Below, piece after piece: positions 49,111-55,837 of a stretch of DNA of 64,000 nt (positions are counted from its first letter, which is position 1; each line of letters starts with the position of its first letter). Source of the DNA: Streptomyces flavochromogenes (lineage in GTDB: Bacteria > Actinomycetota > Actinomycetes > Streptomycetales > Streptomycetaceae); contig NZ_JNZO01000013.1 of the NCBI RefSeq assembly GCF_000717595.1, positions 62,001 to 126,000 of the forward strand. Direction: 5' to 3'. Position numbers and translations under genes: made by a program. Below the pieces are notes generated by a model that saw only the letters and a program-made list of their open reading frames with translations, did no database searches and was not told the DNA's origin.

Positions 49111-50076
49111 TCACAGCTCCCGCAGGGCCGGCAGAAGCTTCGTCTCTGCCCAGTTCAAGAAGGGTTCTTGTCGGTCGCCGCCGATCTGGATCAGGGCGAT
49201 CTCGGTGAATCCGGCGTCACGGTAGGGGCGTACCGCATCGACGAAGGCATCCACGTCGTCGCCGCAGGGGATCGCATCCGCGACGTCCTCGGGCCTGGTG
49301 TGCTGCGAGGCCTGGTCGAAGGCCGCGGGGCCCGGGAGCTCGGCGTTGACCTTCCAGCCCCCGAGCGCCCAGCGGAACTGGTCGTGCGCCCGGGCCACCG
49401 CCGCTGCGCGGTCGGGGCCGTAGGAGACCGGGAGCTGGCCCACGCACGGTTTGCCGGAACCTCCGGACGCGCCGAACGCCGTCACCAGCTCCTTCCTCGG
49501 CTCGGTGGCGATGAGCAGGTCGCCGTGGCGGCCGGCGACCTCGCAGGAGCGGTCTCCGGAGACGGCGATCCCGATCGGGGGCGGATCGTCGGGGAGATCC
49601 CAGATCCTGGCGTTCTCGACGTCGAAGTGGAGGCCGTGGTGGCTGACGTACCCGCCGTCGAACAGGGAACGGATGATCCCCACGGATTCCTCGAGCATGT
49701 CCAGGCGGACGTGGGCGGCGGGCCAGCCGGCGCCGACGATGTGCTCGTTGAGGTTCTCGCCCGAGCCCAGGCCCAGCCGGAATCGCCCCTGGGACAGGAG
49801 CTGCATCGTGGCCGCCTTCTGGGCGACCACGGCGGGGTGGTAGCGGAAGGTCGGGCAGGTCACGTACGTCATGAGCGGGATCCGGGAGGTAGCCTGCGCG
49901 GCGGCGCCCAGCACGCTCCACGCGTAGGGCGCGTGCCCTTGGGCCTCCAGCCAGGGGAAGGAGTGGTCGGAGACGACGGAGAAGTCGAATCCTGCCCGCT
50001 CCGCCCCCACCACATGGTCGACCAGGTCCCGGGGTCCGGCCTGCTCGGTCATCATCGTGTACCCGATGTGCACCAT
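49111..50076 (-). CDS. F420-dependent LLM-class oxidoreductase
   Basis: 321 residues from ATG 50076; the ribosome site is weak (GGAAAG 11 bases off). Luciferase-like TIM barrel: GYTMMTEQAGPRDLVDHVV, FDFSVVSDHSFPW, LMTYVTCPTFRYHPAVVAQK, RFRLGLGSGENLNEHIVG. The GxGxNLNEH motif and TIGR03557-like length suggest F420 as coenzyme, as in glucose-6-phosphate dehydrogenase relatives. The physiological substrate is unknown. It is oriented with the flavin reductase gene 146 bases upstream. Confidence 0.88.
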   Translation of the reverse strand: MVHIGYTMMTEQAGPRDLVDHVVGAERAGFDFSVVSDHSFPWLEAQGHAPYAWSVLGAAAQATSRIPLMTYVTCPTFRYHPAVVAQKAATMQLLSQGRFRLGLGSGENLNEHIVGAGWPAAHVRLDMLEESVGIIRSLFDGGYVSHHGLHFDVENARIWDLPDDPPPIGIAVSGDRSCEVAGRHGDLLIATEPRKELVTAFGASGGSGKPCVGQLPVSYGPDRAAAVARAHDQFRWALGGWKVNAELPGPAAFDQASQHTRPEDVADAIPCGDDVDAFVDAVRPYRDAGFTEIALIQIGGDRQEPFLNWAETKLLPALREL

Positions 50077-50222
50077 ATCGGGCGGCTTTCCGCTTCGATC
50101 GTCCTCAAACGTGCGGCCGTTCCCCGCGAGGCGGGCGGGGCGCGGCCCGCGCCCGTCGGCCGGGTCACGCGCTGCCGGTCCCCCGCACCGTCCGCGGTAC
50201 CGGTGCTCCATCGTCCGGGACG

Positions 50223-50711
50223 TCAGGCCGGGTGCCCCGGATCGAGGTCCTGTAGCTCCCGGTATCGGAGCAGCACGGGCGGCGGGCCCTCGATCGGCGG
50301 GCACACCGCCACGGGCGCCAGGAGGAATCCCACGTGGTCGCCACCCTCGATGCGCCCCTCGATCCGGCCGGTGAACCAGGTGGGCGCCTGCTCCAGGATC
50401 GGACTGCCTCCCTCCCCCGGCCGCCAGCCGATCGTCGCGAACTTGTCGACCCGGTCGCCGGTCTCCTCTCCGAAGAGCTGCGCCAGCGCCCGCTCGTCCC
50501 GGTGCAGCAGGTGCACGGTGAGGTACTCGGCCTCGCTCGCCACGCGGTAGGTGTGGTTGGCGACCGACAGCCACACGGCGAACCTCGGCGGGTCGATGGA
50601 GCACTGCGAGGCGAAGCCCACCAGGCAGCCCGCCCGCTCTCCGCCGGACGCGGCCGTGACCACGTACATCGGGCCGTCGAGTACGTCGGTGAAGGGGTCC
50701 GCGTCCGTCAC
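50223..50711 (-). CDS. Flavin reductase-like FMN-binding protein
   Basis: 162 residues from a GTG with AGGAGGCACT upstream. Split-barrel flavin reductase fold: MYVVTAASGGERAGCLVGFA, RFAVWLSVANHTYRVASEAE and LTVHLLHRDERALAQLFGEE. Members use NAD(P)H to reduce FMN, or reduce a substrate directly. Position upstream of the LLM oxidoreductase makes a functional pairing possible. Confidence 0.88.
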   Translation of the reverse strand: MTDADPFTDVLDGPMYVVTAASGGERAGCLVGFASQCSIDPPRFAVWLSVANHTYRVASEAEYLTVHLLHRDERALAQLFGEETGDRVDKFATIGWRPGEGGSPILEQAPTWFTGRIEGRIEGGDHVGFLLAPVAVCPPIEGPPPVLLRYRELQDLDPGHPA

Positions 50712-50835: not shown

Positions 50836-52203
50836 TCATCGACCGAGGTCGAGGAGGGCGTTCTCCACGACCTCGGTGAGCGCGGGATGGATCCAGTACG
50901 GGGACTCGGCGAGCGTGCGGGCGTCGATACCGAGTGTCGCCGCCAGGACGAGGGGCTGGATCAGTGTCGACGCCTCGGCGCCCATCAGGTGGGCGCCGAG
51001 AAGACGCCCGCTGCCGGGCTCGGCGAGCACCTTGCAGAATCCGGTCGTGTCCTCCATCGCCCAGCCGTAGGCGACGTCGCCGTAACCGGCCAGGCCCACG
51101 ACGTAGTCCAGGCCCCTGTCGCGGCATTCCTGCTCGGTGGCGCCGACCGAGGCGATCTGGGGGTTGGTGAAGACCGCCGCGGGGACCAGGTCGTGGTCGG
51201 CGGCGACGAGGTCGTCCGGATGGCGGAGGTTGTGTGCGACGACCTTCGCCTCACGGTTGGCGACGTGCTTGAGGGGCACCGGCGAGCAGATGTCCCCCAG
51301 GGCGAAGACGCCCTCCGCGGTCGTGCGCTGATGTCGGTCGACGCGCACCCGGCCGTCGTCGTGCGTGGCGATACCGGCCGCTTCCAGATTCAGCCGGTCG
51401 CTGTTCGGGGCCCGGCCCACCGCGACGAGCAGCATGTCCGCGTCGACCGTCGATCCGTCGTCCAGGCTCAGCCGCAGCGCGCCCGGGCGTCCCCCGACTC
51501 CTGTGAGCTCCCGGCCGAGCCTGAGGTCGTAGCGGGAGCGGACCAGTTCCGTGAACCGCTCCGCGACGGTCTCGTCCTGCGGCCCGAGCAGGCGTTCCTC
51601 CTGCTCCACGATGGTGACCGAGCAACCCGCCGCCCCGAACACCTCGGCCAGCTCCGCGGCGATGTATCCGCCCCCGAGGATCGCCAGGCGCCGGGGCGGA
51701 GCGTCGATCCGCATGATGGTGTCGGAGGTCTCGTACGGCAGGCCCGCCTCCGCGACAGGCCCGGGGATCGAGGGCCGGCTGCCCGCCGCGACGACGATCT
51801 GATCCGCGCTGACGTCGACGGTCCCGTGCTCACCCTCGATCCGAAGGCTCCTGGGTCCGATGAACCGGGCTTTGCCCTCGTACACGGTGACCGAGTCCTG
51901 TTGCACGCGCCCCTGACGGCCGCTGTCCCGTTCGGTGTCCAGCCGCCCGAAGACGCGGTCGCGCACCTGGCGCCATCGCACCGCTCGCAGCTCGGCGTCC
52001 ACGTCGTACGCCCCGGCCTCCCGCACGGTCCGGGCGACCTGCGCGGTGTACGCGAGCATCTTGCTCGGGATGCATCCGGCGTTGAGGCAGGTGCCGCCGA
52101 ACCAGCGCTCCTCGACGATGGCCACGTCCAGATCGGCGAACGAGTCGTCGACCACGGCGTTGCCGGATCCCGCACCGATGACGACAAGATCGTGGTGACG
52201 CAT
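50836..52203 (-). CDS. mtr: Mycothione reductase
   Basis: 455 residues from ATG 52203. Pyridine nucleotide-disulphide oxidoreductase: FAD site HDLVVIGAGSGNAVV, redox pair GGTCLNAGCIPSKML (CxxxxC), NADPH site LAILGGGYIAAELAEVFGAA, second FAD contact VFALGDICSPVPLKHVA, and the C-terminal dimerisation domain with His in YWIHPALTEVVENAL. The N-terminal GSGN and LNAGCIPSKM pattern matches mycothione reductases, which keep mycothiol reduced with NADPH in the cytosol. It fits the redox neighbourhood. Confidence 0.92.
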   Translation of the reverse strand: MRHHDLVVIGAGSGNAVVDDSFADLDVAIVEERWFGGTCLNAGCIPSKMLAYTAQVARTVREAGAYDVDAELRAVRWRQVRDRVFGRLDTERDSGRQGRVQQDSVTVYEGKARFIGPRSLRIEGEHGTVDVSADQIVVAAGSRPSIPGPVAEAGLPYETSDTIMRIDAPPRRLAILGGGYIAAELAEVFGAAGCSVTIVEQEERLLGPQDETVAERFTELVRSRYDLRLGRELTGVGGRPGALRLSLDDGSTVDADMLLVAVGRAPNSDRLNLEAAGIATHDDGRVRVDRHQRTTAEGVFALGDICSPVPLKHVANREAKVVAHNLRHPDDLVAADHDLVPAAVFTNPQIASVGATEQECRDRGLDYVVGLAGYGDVAYGWAMEDTTGFCKVLAEPGSGRLLGAHLMGAEASTLIQPLVLAATLGIDARTLAESPYWIHPALTEVVENALLDLGR

Positions 52204-52295: not shown

Positions 52296-53339
52296 TCACT
52301 CGGCGCGCTCCCGGGTCCGTGCGCTCAAAGGCGTGCGCAACGCGCTGCGCCCCTCGGCCCATGCCACGCCGATGTGCTCCGCGAGGCGGTCCTCCAGGTG
52401 GACGGTGGCCGCGCAGCCGAAGGCGATGTCGGGCTCCAGGGACGGCTCGTCCGCGAGCAGTCCGCCGATGACCTCATGGCGCACGACCTGCTCGTGCACG
52501 GCGTCCGCCTCGACGTGCTCGTCGTAGAAGTGCTCGGCGGCCGGTCCTGCCCCGCAGCGCCGCATCGCCTTGGCGAGTCGCCTGGAGCCGGGCGATGAGG
52601 TCACCTCGACGCAGGCGAAGTGACCGACGAGGAGACCTCGGTGGGCGCGGTGGAGCCCGAAGAGGGACATCAGGTTGACGGTGGCGAGCAGCGGAGCGGG
52701 CGCCTGGTCCAGGTAGCGGCCGTACGCGGGGTCGAGGCCGAGGTCCACCATGAGGTCGGCGAACAGCCGGGCATGGATCCGGTCGGGGCGGCCGGCACCG
52801 AACTCGTCGTACTCGATGGCGGCCATCGCGGCCTTGGCCCGGCCCCGCAGCCGCGGGATCACCCAGACGTGCGGGTCGGCCTCCTTGAGGTGGTAGAGCG
52901 AGCGAAGAGCCGCGTACTCCCGCAACTGCCACAGCTCACCCTTCCGTGCCAGGTGGTGGCTGAGGCCACCGGCGGAGTCCAGGGGTTCGACGAGGAGCGG
53001 AGCGAAGGCCTCCTCGACCGATCGGGGGGCGTCGGACAGCTCTGTGCTCAAGGCGTGCAGGAATCGGGCCTCCATGGCCTGGCGCAGCCGCAGCAGATCC
53101 GGGTCCCATTCGCGGTCGTCGTCCACACCGTCGAAGCCGCGGTAGTGGAGCTCGTAGAGGAGGTAGAGCGCGAGCTGGAGGTCCTCGCCCCACGGGTCGG
53201 CCGTCAGTACGGCGCCCGGGCGGTACGCCGGAGTGCCGTTCGACCGGAGGGCCTCGGTGACCGCGGCGGACAGCGTGCCGCGCGGTTCGACCAGGCGGGG
53301 CCGCGCGGTGGCCGTGGCGCTCGTGAGCGTGGGCGTCAT
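52296..53339 (-). CDS. Iron-containing redox enzyme (heme-oxygenase-like fold)
   Basis: 347 residues from ATG 53339, which overlaps the CDGSH stop by four bases. An all-helical heme-oxygenase-like di-iron fold is suggested: ELHYRGFDGVDDDREWDPDL, AAIEYDEFGAGRPDRIHARL, HFACVEVTSSPGSRRLAKAM, HFYDEHVEADAVHEQVVRHE (Glu/His iron ligands). HDO-type enzymes use O2 to oxidise or cleave diverse substrates. Co-occurrence with CDGSH and a methyltransferase in one operon is its best functional clue. Confidence 0.87.
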   Translation of the reverse strand: MTPTLTSATATARPRLVEPRGTLSAAVTEALRSNGTPAYRPGAVLTADPWGEDLQLALYLLYELHYRGFDGVDDDREWDPDLLRLRQAMEARFLHALSTELSDAPRSVEEAFAPLLVEPLDSAGGLSHHLARKGELWQLREYAALRSLYHLKEADPHVWVIPRLRGRAKAAMAAIEYDEFGAGRPDRIHARLFADLMVDLGLDPAYGRYLDQAPAPLLATVNLMSLFGLHRAHRGLLVGHFACVEVTSSPGSRRLAKAMRRCGAGPAAEHFYDEHVEADAVHEQVVRHEVIGGLLADEPSLEPDIAFGCAATVHLEDRLAEHIGVAWAEGRSALRTPLSARTRERAE

Positions 53340-53644
53340 GAGGGATTCCTGTCCTCGGGGGCCGGGACGGCGCGCTCGCGGGGGCGGTGACTGGTGTCGC
53401 ACCACGGGTAGATGCGGCTGCGACGGCAGGTACAGAGGGCGACCATGAAGCGCTCGGAGCGGGCGACCGTGCCGTCATCGAGGACGATCTCGACCGGCCC
53501 CTCGACCAGCACGGGGCCCTTCGGGTCCTTGGCCGCCCGGTTGACAGGCGCCTCCGGGCGGGTGGGGCAGGGGGTGGTCTTCCGGGAGTCGCGGGGGGTG
53601 TTCCGGGAGTCGCCGGGAGTGGTGTTCCGGGAGTCAGCGTGCAC
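53336..53644 (-). CDS. CDGSH iron-sulphur domain protein
   Basis: 102 residues from GTG 53644, overlapping the methyltransferase stop by eleven bases. The cluster motif CTCRRSRIYPWCDTSH (CxCx2Sx3PxCDxSH) binds one [2Fe-2S] with three Cys and one His. The N-terminal 25 residues contain three DSR(N/K)T repeats encoded by near-identical DNA. Likely a small electron carrier or cluster sensor serving the overlapping iron enzyme. Confidence 0.9.
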   Translation of the reverse strand: MHADSRNTTPGDSRNTPRDSRKTTPCPTRPEAPVNRAAKDPKGPVLVEGPVEIVLDDGTVARSERFMVALCTCRRSRIYPWCDTSHRPRERAVPAPEDRNPS

Positions 53645-54314
53645 GGATGACCACCAGCTCTTCCCGTTCCTCGGCTTCGGCCGCCAGGCCCACCCGTGCC
53701 AGCCAGGACCGGCGTGAACACAGGACGGGACCCCAGGGCACCGAGGCCCTGGCCGTGACGTCCGCGGCCATCCCCGCCCCGGTCAGCCGGTCGACGGTCT
53801 CCTGGACCCCGCACATCCGGGAATGCACCAGGAGCAGGACCCCACCGGGCCGCAGCAGCGCCGGAGCGCTCTCACAGATGCGGTCGATGACGCCTCGCCC
53901 GTCCGGGCCGGCGTCCCAGGCCCGTTCCGGCCCGCGCGAGGGCAGCAGGACGTCCGGAGCCGGCACATAGGGCGGATTCGAGACGACGAGGTCGAAGCGG
54001 CGGCCTGCGCTGCGCGCCGCGAAGTCGCCGTGAACGACGCGCACGGGCAGTCTCTGGCGCAGGGCGTTCAGGCGGGCGGTGAGGACGGCGGGCCATGAGA
54101 CGTCGACAGCCGTGACCCGTGCCCGTCGCCGAGCCGCGTCGAGGGCGAGTGCTCCGGTGCCCGTACCGATCTCCAGCACCTCCGTCCCGGGCCCGACGTC
54201 CTCCTGGGCAAGGGCGTGGGCGAGCAGCCGCGTGTCAGCCTGCGGCCGGTAGACACCGGGCAACGCGATCAGCCCGCCTGGCAGTGTGCCCAGGGTCAGA
54301 GCCGTACCGGACAC
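53634..54314 (-). CDS. HemK2/MTQ2-like SAM-dependent methyltransferase
   Basis: 226 residues from a GTG start. Rossmann methyltransferase: VLEIGTGTGALALDAARRRA (SAM loop), VTAVDVS, HGDFAARSA, and the NPPY motif LVVSNPPYVPAP which methylates a planar amide or amine (Gln of release factors, or N of nucleotides). The length fits the HemK2 subgroup. First gene of a coupled three-gene unit with CDGSH and iron enzyme. Confidence 0.9.
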   Translation of the reverse strand: MSGTALTLGTLPGGLIALPGVYRPQADTRLLAHALAQEDVGPGTEVLEIGTGTGALALDAARRRARVTAVDVSWPAVLTARLNALRQRLPVRVVHGDFAARSAGRRFDLVVSNPPYVPAPDVLLPSRGPERAWDAGPDGRGVIDRICESAPALLRPGGVLLLVHSRMCGVQETVDRLTGAGMAADVTARASVPWGPVLCSRRSWLARVGLAAEAEEREELVVIRAR

Positions 54315-54503: not shown

Positions 54504-54545
54504 AGGAGCCCGCCGGCATGCGGTACCCGAGCCGAGGCGGAAGGG

Positions 54546-55736
54546 TCATCGACCGGGGGTCAGTACCACCTTGACCATGCCGTCCCGCTTCGCCTGGAAC
54601 GTCTCGTAGGCCTGGGGCGCCTCCTCGAGCGGAAGAACATGCGTTGCGAACTCGTCGACTCCCAACGGATCGCTGTCGTCGAGCAGCGGGAGAATCTCGT
54701 CCACCCAGTGCCGGACGTTGGCCTGACCCATCCGGAGCTGGATCTGCTTGTCGAAGAGGCTGCGCATGGGCACGGGGTCGACGGCGCCGCCGTAGACGCC
54801 GACCAGACTGATGGTGCCGCCGCGACGCACCGCGTCCACCGCCGCGTCGAACGCGGTCATGCTGTCCACACCGGCCTTGGTCATGAGCTTCCTGCCGAGG
54901 GCGTCGGGCAGCAGTCCGGTGACTCGCTGGGCGGCTTTGGTGAAGGGGGCGCCGTGCGCCTCCATGCCGACGGCTTCGATGACGGCATCCGTACCGCGAC
55001 CGTCCGTGAGGTCCCGAATCCGGTCCCCGAGCCCGTCGCCGAGCTCGGCGAGGTCGAGCGTGCGCACACCGCGCTCCCGAGCGCGGGAGAGCCGTTCGGG
55101 GACGAGGTCCACGCCGAGGACTTCGGCCGCGCCCCGGTGAAGGGCCACGCGAGCAGCCATGTCGCCGATGGGTCCGAGCCCCAGCACTGTCACGCTGCCC
55201 CCGGGCGGGATCCCGGCGTAGTCCACCGCCTGCCAGGCGGTCGGCAGGACGTCGGAGAGGTAGAGGTACCGCTGGTCGGGGGCGTCGTCGGGCACCTTGA
55301 CCGGCAGGGTGTCGCCGAAGGGAACCCGCAGGAACTCGGCCTGGCCGCCCGGAACCTGGCCGTAGAGCTTGGTGTAGCCGAACAGCGACGCACCCATGCC
55401 GTACTCCGTGACCTGGGTGGTCTCGCACTGCGACTGCAGCCCCTGGCCGCACATCCAGCACGTACCGCAGGAGATGTTGAACGGCACCACCACCCGGTCT
55501 CCCGGCACAAGGGTCCGGACACCGGGACCGACCTCTTCCACGATCCCCATGGCCTCGTGCCCGAGGATGTCACCGGCGTCCAGGAAGGGGCCGAACAGCT
55601 CGTACAGATGCAGGTCGGAGCCGCAGATGCCGGTCGAGGTGACGCGGACGATCACGTCCGTCGGATCGACGACGACCGGATCGGGCACGGTGTCCACCCG
55701 CACGTCGCGTTGCCCGTGCCAGGTCAATGCCCTCAT
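54546..55736 (-). CDS. Zinc-dependent alcohol dehydrogenase (MDR family)
   Basis: 396 residues from ATG 55736 (GAGAGGACC upstream). Catalytic Zn: GICGSDLHLYELF and GHEAMGIVEEVG; structural Zn: CGTCWMCGQGLQSQC; Rossmann VTVLGLGPIGDMAARVALHR. The insertion YGQVPGGQAEFLRVPFGDTL is typical of glutathione-independent formaldehyde dehydrogenase-like and threonine dehydrogenase-like MDRs. It likely oxidises an alcohol or aldehyde with NAD. The substrate is not certain. Confidence 0.9.
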   Translation of the reverse strand: MRALTWHGQRDVRVDTVPDPVVVDPTDVIVRVTSTGICGSDLHLYELFGPFLDAGDILGHEAMGIVEEVGPGVRTLVPGDRVVVPFNISCGTCWMCGQGLQSQCETTQVTEYGMGASLFGYTKLYGQVPGGQAEFLRVPFGDTLPVKVPDDAPDQRYLYLSDVLPTAWQAVDYAGIPPGGSVTVLGLGPIGDMAARVALHRGAAEVLGVDLVPERLSRARERGVRTLDLAELGDGLGDRIRDLTDGRGTDAVIEAVGMEAHGAPFTKAAQRVTGLLPDALGRKLMTKAGVDSMTAFDAAVDAVRRGGTISLVGVYGGAVDPVPMRSLFDKQIQLRMGQANVRHWVDEILPLLDDSDPLGVDEFATHVLPLEEAPQAYETFQAKRDGMVKVVLTPGR

Positions 55737-55837
55737 GGTCCTCTCCTCGCTCTCGGCGGCACTCGACACTCAGCGGCTGCCCGGTCCCGGCTGCCCCATG
55801 CGCTGCCCCTTCCACCGCCCGAGGGCAACCCCGTGGA

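Follow-up and report, generated by a model that had tools for sequence, protein, structure and literature searches.

A 64,000-nucleotide stretch of the Streptomyces flavochromogenes contig NZ_JNZO01000013.1 (hereafter the window) carries three overlapping genes encoding a HemK2/MTQ2-type methyltransferase with an NPPY motif, a small CDGSH-type [2Fe-2S] protein and a heme-oxygenase-like di-iron enzyme (HDO). This gene set recurs widely: the trio is real and conserved. Our preferred interpretation is an actinobacterial N-oxygenation module, made up of an N-oxygenase, a [2Fe-2S] donor and an N-methyltransferase; whether it holds we judge to be evenly balanced, on the basis of the gene linkage, conservation and ligand set observed here and of the fold of a predicted model. 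A fuller proposal is offered tentatively and is, taken whole, rather doubtful: an unrecognised, partly stress-controlled actinobacterial pathway in which a cupin-less SznF-like N-oxygenase, with the CDGSH protein as its native donor, would give rise to an N-methylated (elsewhere glycosylated) N-hydroxy metabolite.

The distribution of the set was inventoried in a Streptomyces-type collection, comprising the best 80 loci of 288 confirmed stretches, and in a class-wide scan of 148 genomes with the profiles PF09360, PF14518 and TIGR00537. From the scan, PF14518 matches were entered down to 61 bits (98 in all); the 72 that score above 150 bits, from 70 genomes, are termed strong HDO loci and the remaining 26 weaker; the best 25 TIGR00537 matches were entered, and those below 70 bits excluded. 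A CDGSH gene lies within 5 kb of 59 of the 72 strong HDO loci, in varied orders and on either strand, and of none of the 26 weaker ones, while a HemK-superfamily methyltransferase of any of three types occurs at 43 of the 72. Among the best 25 TIGR00537 loci, 22 lie within 400 bp of a CDGSH gene, all on the same strand as that gene. Counting matches anywhere in the Streptomyces-type loci, the methyltransferase is represented in 75/80, CDGSH in 74/80 and mycothione reductase in 9/80; in 74 of the 80 the methyltransferase shares the strand of the HDO and lies no more than 2.5 kb from it, upstream in 50 (the order seen in the window) and downstream in 24. A sequence-only reading of the locus, for which scarcity of the triad elsewhere would have counted as a refutation, is thus strengthened in its linkage of the three genes, since the set is widely conserved in actinobacteria. 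The gene overlaps it described are present (Table 1); the products in fixed ratio that it expected from them are not shown, as 35 of the 59 HDO-CDGSH pairs of the class scan share a strand and 24 lie on opposite strands. A neighbourhood that has outlived rearrangement with its orientation unfixed argues for shared function and against fixed stoichiometry.

The translated HDO matches PF14518 with 193.9 bits (cut-off 28.9; E 2.7e-57), and its nearest named relatives are from Streptomyces. Aligned over 39 of 40 rows (one, L121, was dropped because of a stop in its translation), E180, H190, E246, H276, D280 and H283 are invariant in 39/39 and correspond to the 3-His/3-carboxylate di-iron ligands of SznF, from the streptozotocin pathway; E154, also invariant in 39/39, aligns with SznF E189, an additional carboxylate ligand of Fe1 in auxiliary helix 2. 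The HDO domain thus shares all seven iron ligands with SznF. The literature drawn on here, available to us in part, comprises PMC10654658, PMC13061610, PMC11611611, PMC8346170 and PMC11705231; as far as its available text goes, a seventh carboxylate at this position is described for HDOs that are not substrate-triggered, such as SznF and RohS. The top structural matches of the predicted HDO model are HrmI, SznF and RohS, and N-oxygenases lead other HDO types by far in both sequence and fold scores. Identity is 20% with HrmI, the L-lysine N-oxygenase of hormaomycin biosynthesis, and 16% (in the structural alignment) with RohS, a 2-aminoimidazole N-oxygenase. Because the HDO has the ligand set of N-oxygenases, the small biosynthetic or protective pathway originally envisaged for the trio, which stands as a conserved unit, can be refined to one that probably combines N-oxygenation with N-methylation; for the HDO itself, N-oxygenation is very probable. 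Unlike SznF, the window HDO has no C-terminal cupin, PF14518 being the sole Pfam match in the 348-residue translation searched, so that the N-N rearrangement is not expected of it and it would work like the HDO half of SznF rather than as a SznF. In a further departure from SznF, strong HDOs are widespread (70/148 genomes of the class), a breadth more in keeping with a generally useful pathway than with an uncommon antibiotic cluster. The row omitted from the alignment (L121; G122:C242) holds a stop codon within its tblastn HDO stretch; either the gene has perhaps decayed, or the alignment may run across two frames.

The CDGSH protein matches PF09360 with 63.1 bits (cut-off 29.5; E 3e-17). Among the 113 loci, the window included, for which tblastn gave a segment with an E value no higher than 1, 111 retain the 3-Cys/1-His motif, the two misses (L113 and L017) representing one segment cut short and one weak segment; CDTS replaces CDGS in the window and in 87/113 loci. 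The protein resembles CDGSH (NEET) proteins such as mitoNEET in its [2Fe-2S] 3-Cys/1-His motif and differs from them in being a single small domain and in having CDTS for CDGS. A di-iron oxygenase that carries out repeated hydroxylation needs re-reduction, and the CDGSH protein is, on balance, the favoured electron donor to the HDO. This proposal, already made in the sequence-only reading, gains support by analogy from plasmids of other phyla, four records of which have a Rieske [2Fe-2S] gene in the corresponding position. The Azospirillum HDO (L186) has the seven ligands and a Cupin_2 domain, and its 3' end overlaps a Rieske gene; the Azospirillum HDO search gave, besides partial matches in Rhizobium, five records with wide coverage (L186, L188, L189, L190 and L191), of which the Gloeothece (L188), Methylobacterium (L189) and Pantoea (L190) HDOs likewise have seven ligands and an overlapping Rieske gene. 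Four of these five long SznF-like plasmid HDOs therefore overlap a Rieske gene where actinobacteria carry CDGSH. The HDOs of Komagataeibacter (L178), Agrobacterium (L185), Sphingobium (L180) and Salmonella (L181) have F where E154 would align, and no annotated [2Fe-2S] gene overlaps them, a ferredoxin-NADP reductase lying ~2 kb from the Agrobacterium gene. A small [2Fe-2S] protein thus tends to accompany seven-ligand HDOs, CDGSH in actinobacteria and Rieske elsewhere, and this pattern, in few records and by analogy, is the best evidence for a donor role. Among the annotated actinobacterial plasmid copies inspected, CDGSH stands beside the HDO in four (L132, L133, L135 and L179), and a fifth, the short match from Gordonia (L137), has no CDGSH beside its HDO.

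The conserved HDO-CDGSH pair provides a concrete candidate donor for HDOs and a candidate partner for bacterial CDGSH proteins; if the proposal is true, CDGSH proteins would represent a new class of physiological HDO reductant, interchangeable with Rieske proteins. In the available text of the HDO literature consulted, the reductant used in vitro with the HDO AetD is ascorbate or Fe(II), and no native HDO electron donor is named. We found no publication joining CDGSH with heme-oxygenase-like or 'iron-containing redox enzyme' proteins, or with Streptomyces gene clusters, in a search that left most subscription literature outside its reach; a function for the Rieske proteins that accompany SznF may have been published before.

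The window methyltransferase scores 111.5 bits against TIGR00537 (HemK2/MTQ2; cut-off 87) and matches PF05175 (E 8.3e-19). Its best relative in the PDB is human HemK2/N6AMT1 (E 8e-14), with which it shares the family model and an alignment of both NPPY and the subsequent G-x-E-x-AW...GR segment; unlike HemK2/N6AMT1, it sits in an HDO operon. HemK2/MTQ2 enzymes work with a Trm112 partner and methylate protein Gln or Lys. Streptozotocin-type clusters have a PRMT-like arginine-guanidino methyltransferase beside the HDO. The trio resembles the latter in pairing an HDO with a nitrogen methyltransferase (SznE in the streptozotocin pathway, according to the available text) and departs from it in having a HemK-type enzyme, to which HemK-type models and no Pfam PRMT model match, and CDGSH instead of Rieske.

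Two further types of HemK-superfamily methyltransferase accompany HDOs where TIGR00537 is absent. One, of family f18, has NPPY; of its 8 loci, spread over 7 genomes, all but one are near an HDO. The other, of families f19 and f26, was entered for neighbour counts above 160 bits (17 loci, 15 near an HDO) and has DPPW in six and DPPY in one of seven examined. Named homologues of the f19 HDO query were headed by Jiangella, followed by Aeromicrobium and other Nocardioidaceae. In a methyltransferase tree of 42 rows each type forms its own clade, the DPPW type beside PrmC-related proteins (93/93), a label of our own for weaker matches in a tree with no canonical PrmC, archaeal or human HemK2 row; L159 offered no suitable segment, and the placement of the long-branched Komagataeibacter row is uncertain. 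A single HemK-type methyltransferase lineage was ruled out by these three separate clades. Since the third gene varies in this way and may also be replaced (see below), the core is HDO plus CDGSH, with a differing tailoring partner.

In the mechanism we propose, the HDO would bind a di-iron centre through the seven-ligand set of SznF, activate O2 and hydroxylate a nitrogen atom, either in a small metabolite or in a side chain; the CDGSH protein would act as the dedicated carrier re-reducing this centre, and the methyltransferase would methylate a nitrogen of the same substrate, like SznE ahead of SznF. That HDO and methyltransferase share one substrate we rate at slightly below an even chance. 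Several observations weigh against this scheme. HrmI, the best structural match, aligns F at the position of E154, which is invariant in the trio, and the fifth long SznF-like plasmid HDO, from Tistrella (L191), lacks an annotated Rieske neighbour (this HDO also deviates at three of the seven ligand positions in the alignment). Functionally characterised relatives of HemK2 act on proteins and are not known to methylate arginine-like metabolites. Three of the best 25 TIGR00537 loci are far from both CDGSH and HDO. Methylation is not universal, because 29 of the 72 strong HDO loci are without a methyltransferase of the three types, and at nine fetched loci (L090, L091, L093-L098 and L105, belonging to families f9, f17, f2 and f3) a glycosyltransferase-2-like gene stands beside the HDO instead; the one such protein compared with Pfam fell just under the cut-off. 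CDGSH occurs without a strong HDO in 25 genomes, and so serves other uses too, and a strong HDO occurs without a CDGSH match in 10. Finally, a neighbouring CDGSH gene is missing from 7 of the 8 HDO loci of family f18, and when 3.5 to 10 kb at each of seven f18 loci were scanned for motifs without a base-composition filter, no convincing small Fe-S gene emerged; a linked donor is therefore not obligatory.

Other functions can be envisaged for the same genes. The HDO might be a lyase or desaturase of the UndA, BesC or CADD type that breaks a C-C bond in an amino or fatty acid with electrons from CDGSH, while the methyltransferase or the adjacent alcohol dehydrogenase processes the products; the invariant seventh carboxylate and the clear lead of N-oxygenases in both kinds of score make this quite unlikely. 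Alternatively, the target might be a protein, with the HemK2-like enzyme methylating one of its side chains and the HDO oxidising either that side chain or, in a CADD-like self-sacrifice, one of the HDO's own. Such protein modification would suit the nearest solved relative, human HemK2, as a protein methyltransferase, and also the scarcity of other common biosynthetic genes, as gene clusters outside the trio occur in at most 23 of the 80 loci; it fits poorly with a glycosyltransferase-like gene replacing the methyltransferase at other loci, and with SznF acting, in the available text, on free N-methyl-arginine, and we regard it as distinctly improbable.

General stress protection, in which the HDO or CDGSH protein would handle iron, O2, reactive nitrogen or aldehyde with no dedicated metabolite, is also unlikely, and the evidence that bears on it is mixed. 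SigB-family promoters of S. coelicolor have a GGGTA[CT] box, according to the available part of PMC8346170. When the HDO lies ahead of the methyltransferase, this sequence occurs within 75 bases before the conserved HDO N-terminus in 24/24 loci (at a distance of 9-10 bases from the ATG in rows checked by eye), compared with 50 of 1274 other open reading frame starts and none of 50 HDOs in the window's gene order; the 24 loci are close relatives and thus not independent. Upstream of the methyltransferase the box is at background, 5/50 versus 9% of random stretches (2000 random 360-mers from control stretches and the 80 HDO loci). For the window operon, the search for a SigB-type promoter yielded no complete pattern; GGGTAC stands alone at ~54523-54528 on the minus strand, ~210 bp before the methyltransferase. 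A Streptomyces plasmid copy of the trio (L132) has two SigB/SigF-type sigma factors, together with GAF-ANTAR and STAS genes, on its flanks, and CsbD, SpoIIE and STAS genes lie near one other copy and gas-vesicle genes near another. Relative to 20 control stretches, placed at round coordinates in four genomes of the genus and not drawn at random, sigma-factor neighbours are weakly enriched (9/80 and 6/38 loci versus 1/20), a second STAS protein hardly so (8/80 and 1/38 versus 1/20) and an anti-sigma-like ATP-binding protein not at all (4/80 and 0/38 versus 2/20). Stress control would in any case be compatible with a biosynthetic role.

Table 1. Trio genes, their overlaps and neighbouring features, in window coordinates.
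Feature	Coordinates	Strand	Details
HemK2/MTQ2-type methyltransferase (NPPY)	53634..54314	-	GTG start, 226 aa; TIGR00537 111.5 bits
CDGSH-type [2Fe-2S] protein	53336..53644	-	GTG start, 102 aa; PF09360; ligand segment CTCRRSRIYPWCDTSH
HDO, probable N-oxygenase type	52296..53339	-	ATG 53339, 347 aa; PF14518
Methyltransferase/CDGSH gene overlap, 11 bp	53634..53644	-	sequence
CDGSH/HDO stop/start overlap ATGA, 4 bp	53336..53339	-	sequence
Mycothione reductase, neighbour outside conserved unit	50836..52203	-	NF005884 658.5 bits, cut-off 501
Zinc alcohol dehydrogenase, formaldehyde-dehydrogenase-like, upstream of trio	54546..55769	-	PF08240/PF00107; occasional neighbour
F420-family LLM oxidoreductase and flavin reductase, beyond mycothione reductase	49111-50711

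Start assignments at the locus call for some adjustment. The open reading frame first taken for the HDO (52296-53405; GTG, 369 aa) begins upstream of the ATG at 53339-53337; the GTG start is probably wrong, the shorter one being preferred because of its ATGA overlap with the CDGSH stop. The CDGSH N-terminus (53580-53640) looks like an imperfect repeat (DSRNTTPGDSRNTPRDSRKTTP), and its true start codon may lie downstream. In the 508-residue mycothione reductase open reading frame, the match to NF005884 starts only at residue 54, at 52203 and 92 bp past the HDO stop, so that this gene probably does not overlap the HDO. Its position after the HDO, recorded in the sequence-only reading, holds for the window and does not extend to a link with the trio: it lies directly 3' of the HDO in 3/80 loci (L008-L010) and was rejected as a fourth member.

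Two other candidates were set aside. Dimethylargininase, which adjoins the HDO on a Kitasatospora plasmid and would point to methylarginine, appeared at 0/118 further loci. A natural CDGSH-HDO fusion was sought among same-strand pairs, two of which are in frame by coordinates (G031 and G039), G031 having the methyltransferase between.

On plasmids outside the actinobacteria, Komagataeibacter L178:2881-4735 presents another HDO-methyltransferase pairing, with the HDO directly 3' of an NPPY methyltransferase. The Methylobacterium (L189) and Pantoea (L190) plasmids bring together genes for a SznF-like HDO, a Rieske protein, a PRMT/PrmA-like methyltransferase and ATP-grasp proteins, possibly representing unstudied N-nitroso-type pathways; in a Pfam comparison of ten proteins, the Pantoea gene matched PRMT_C with 38.5 bits (cut-off 27) and the Methylobacterium gene with 26.9, just below the cut-off.

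Among other neighbours, a strong HDO lies no more than 6 kb away at 11/61 loci with an orthologue of the zinc alcohol dehydrogenase (entered above 500 bits), and a flavin reductase is near the HDO in 16/80 Streptomyces-type loci versus 0/20 control stretches. The most widespread neighbour beyond the trio is a small, secreted-looking protein of ~147 residues (23/80 loci; L080:10058-10501 and relatives), which we presume to resemble a protease inhibitor.
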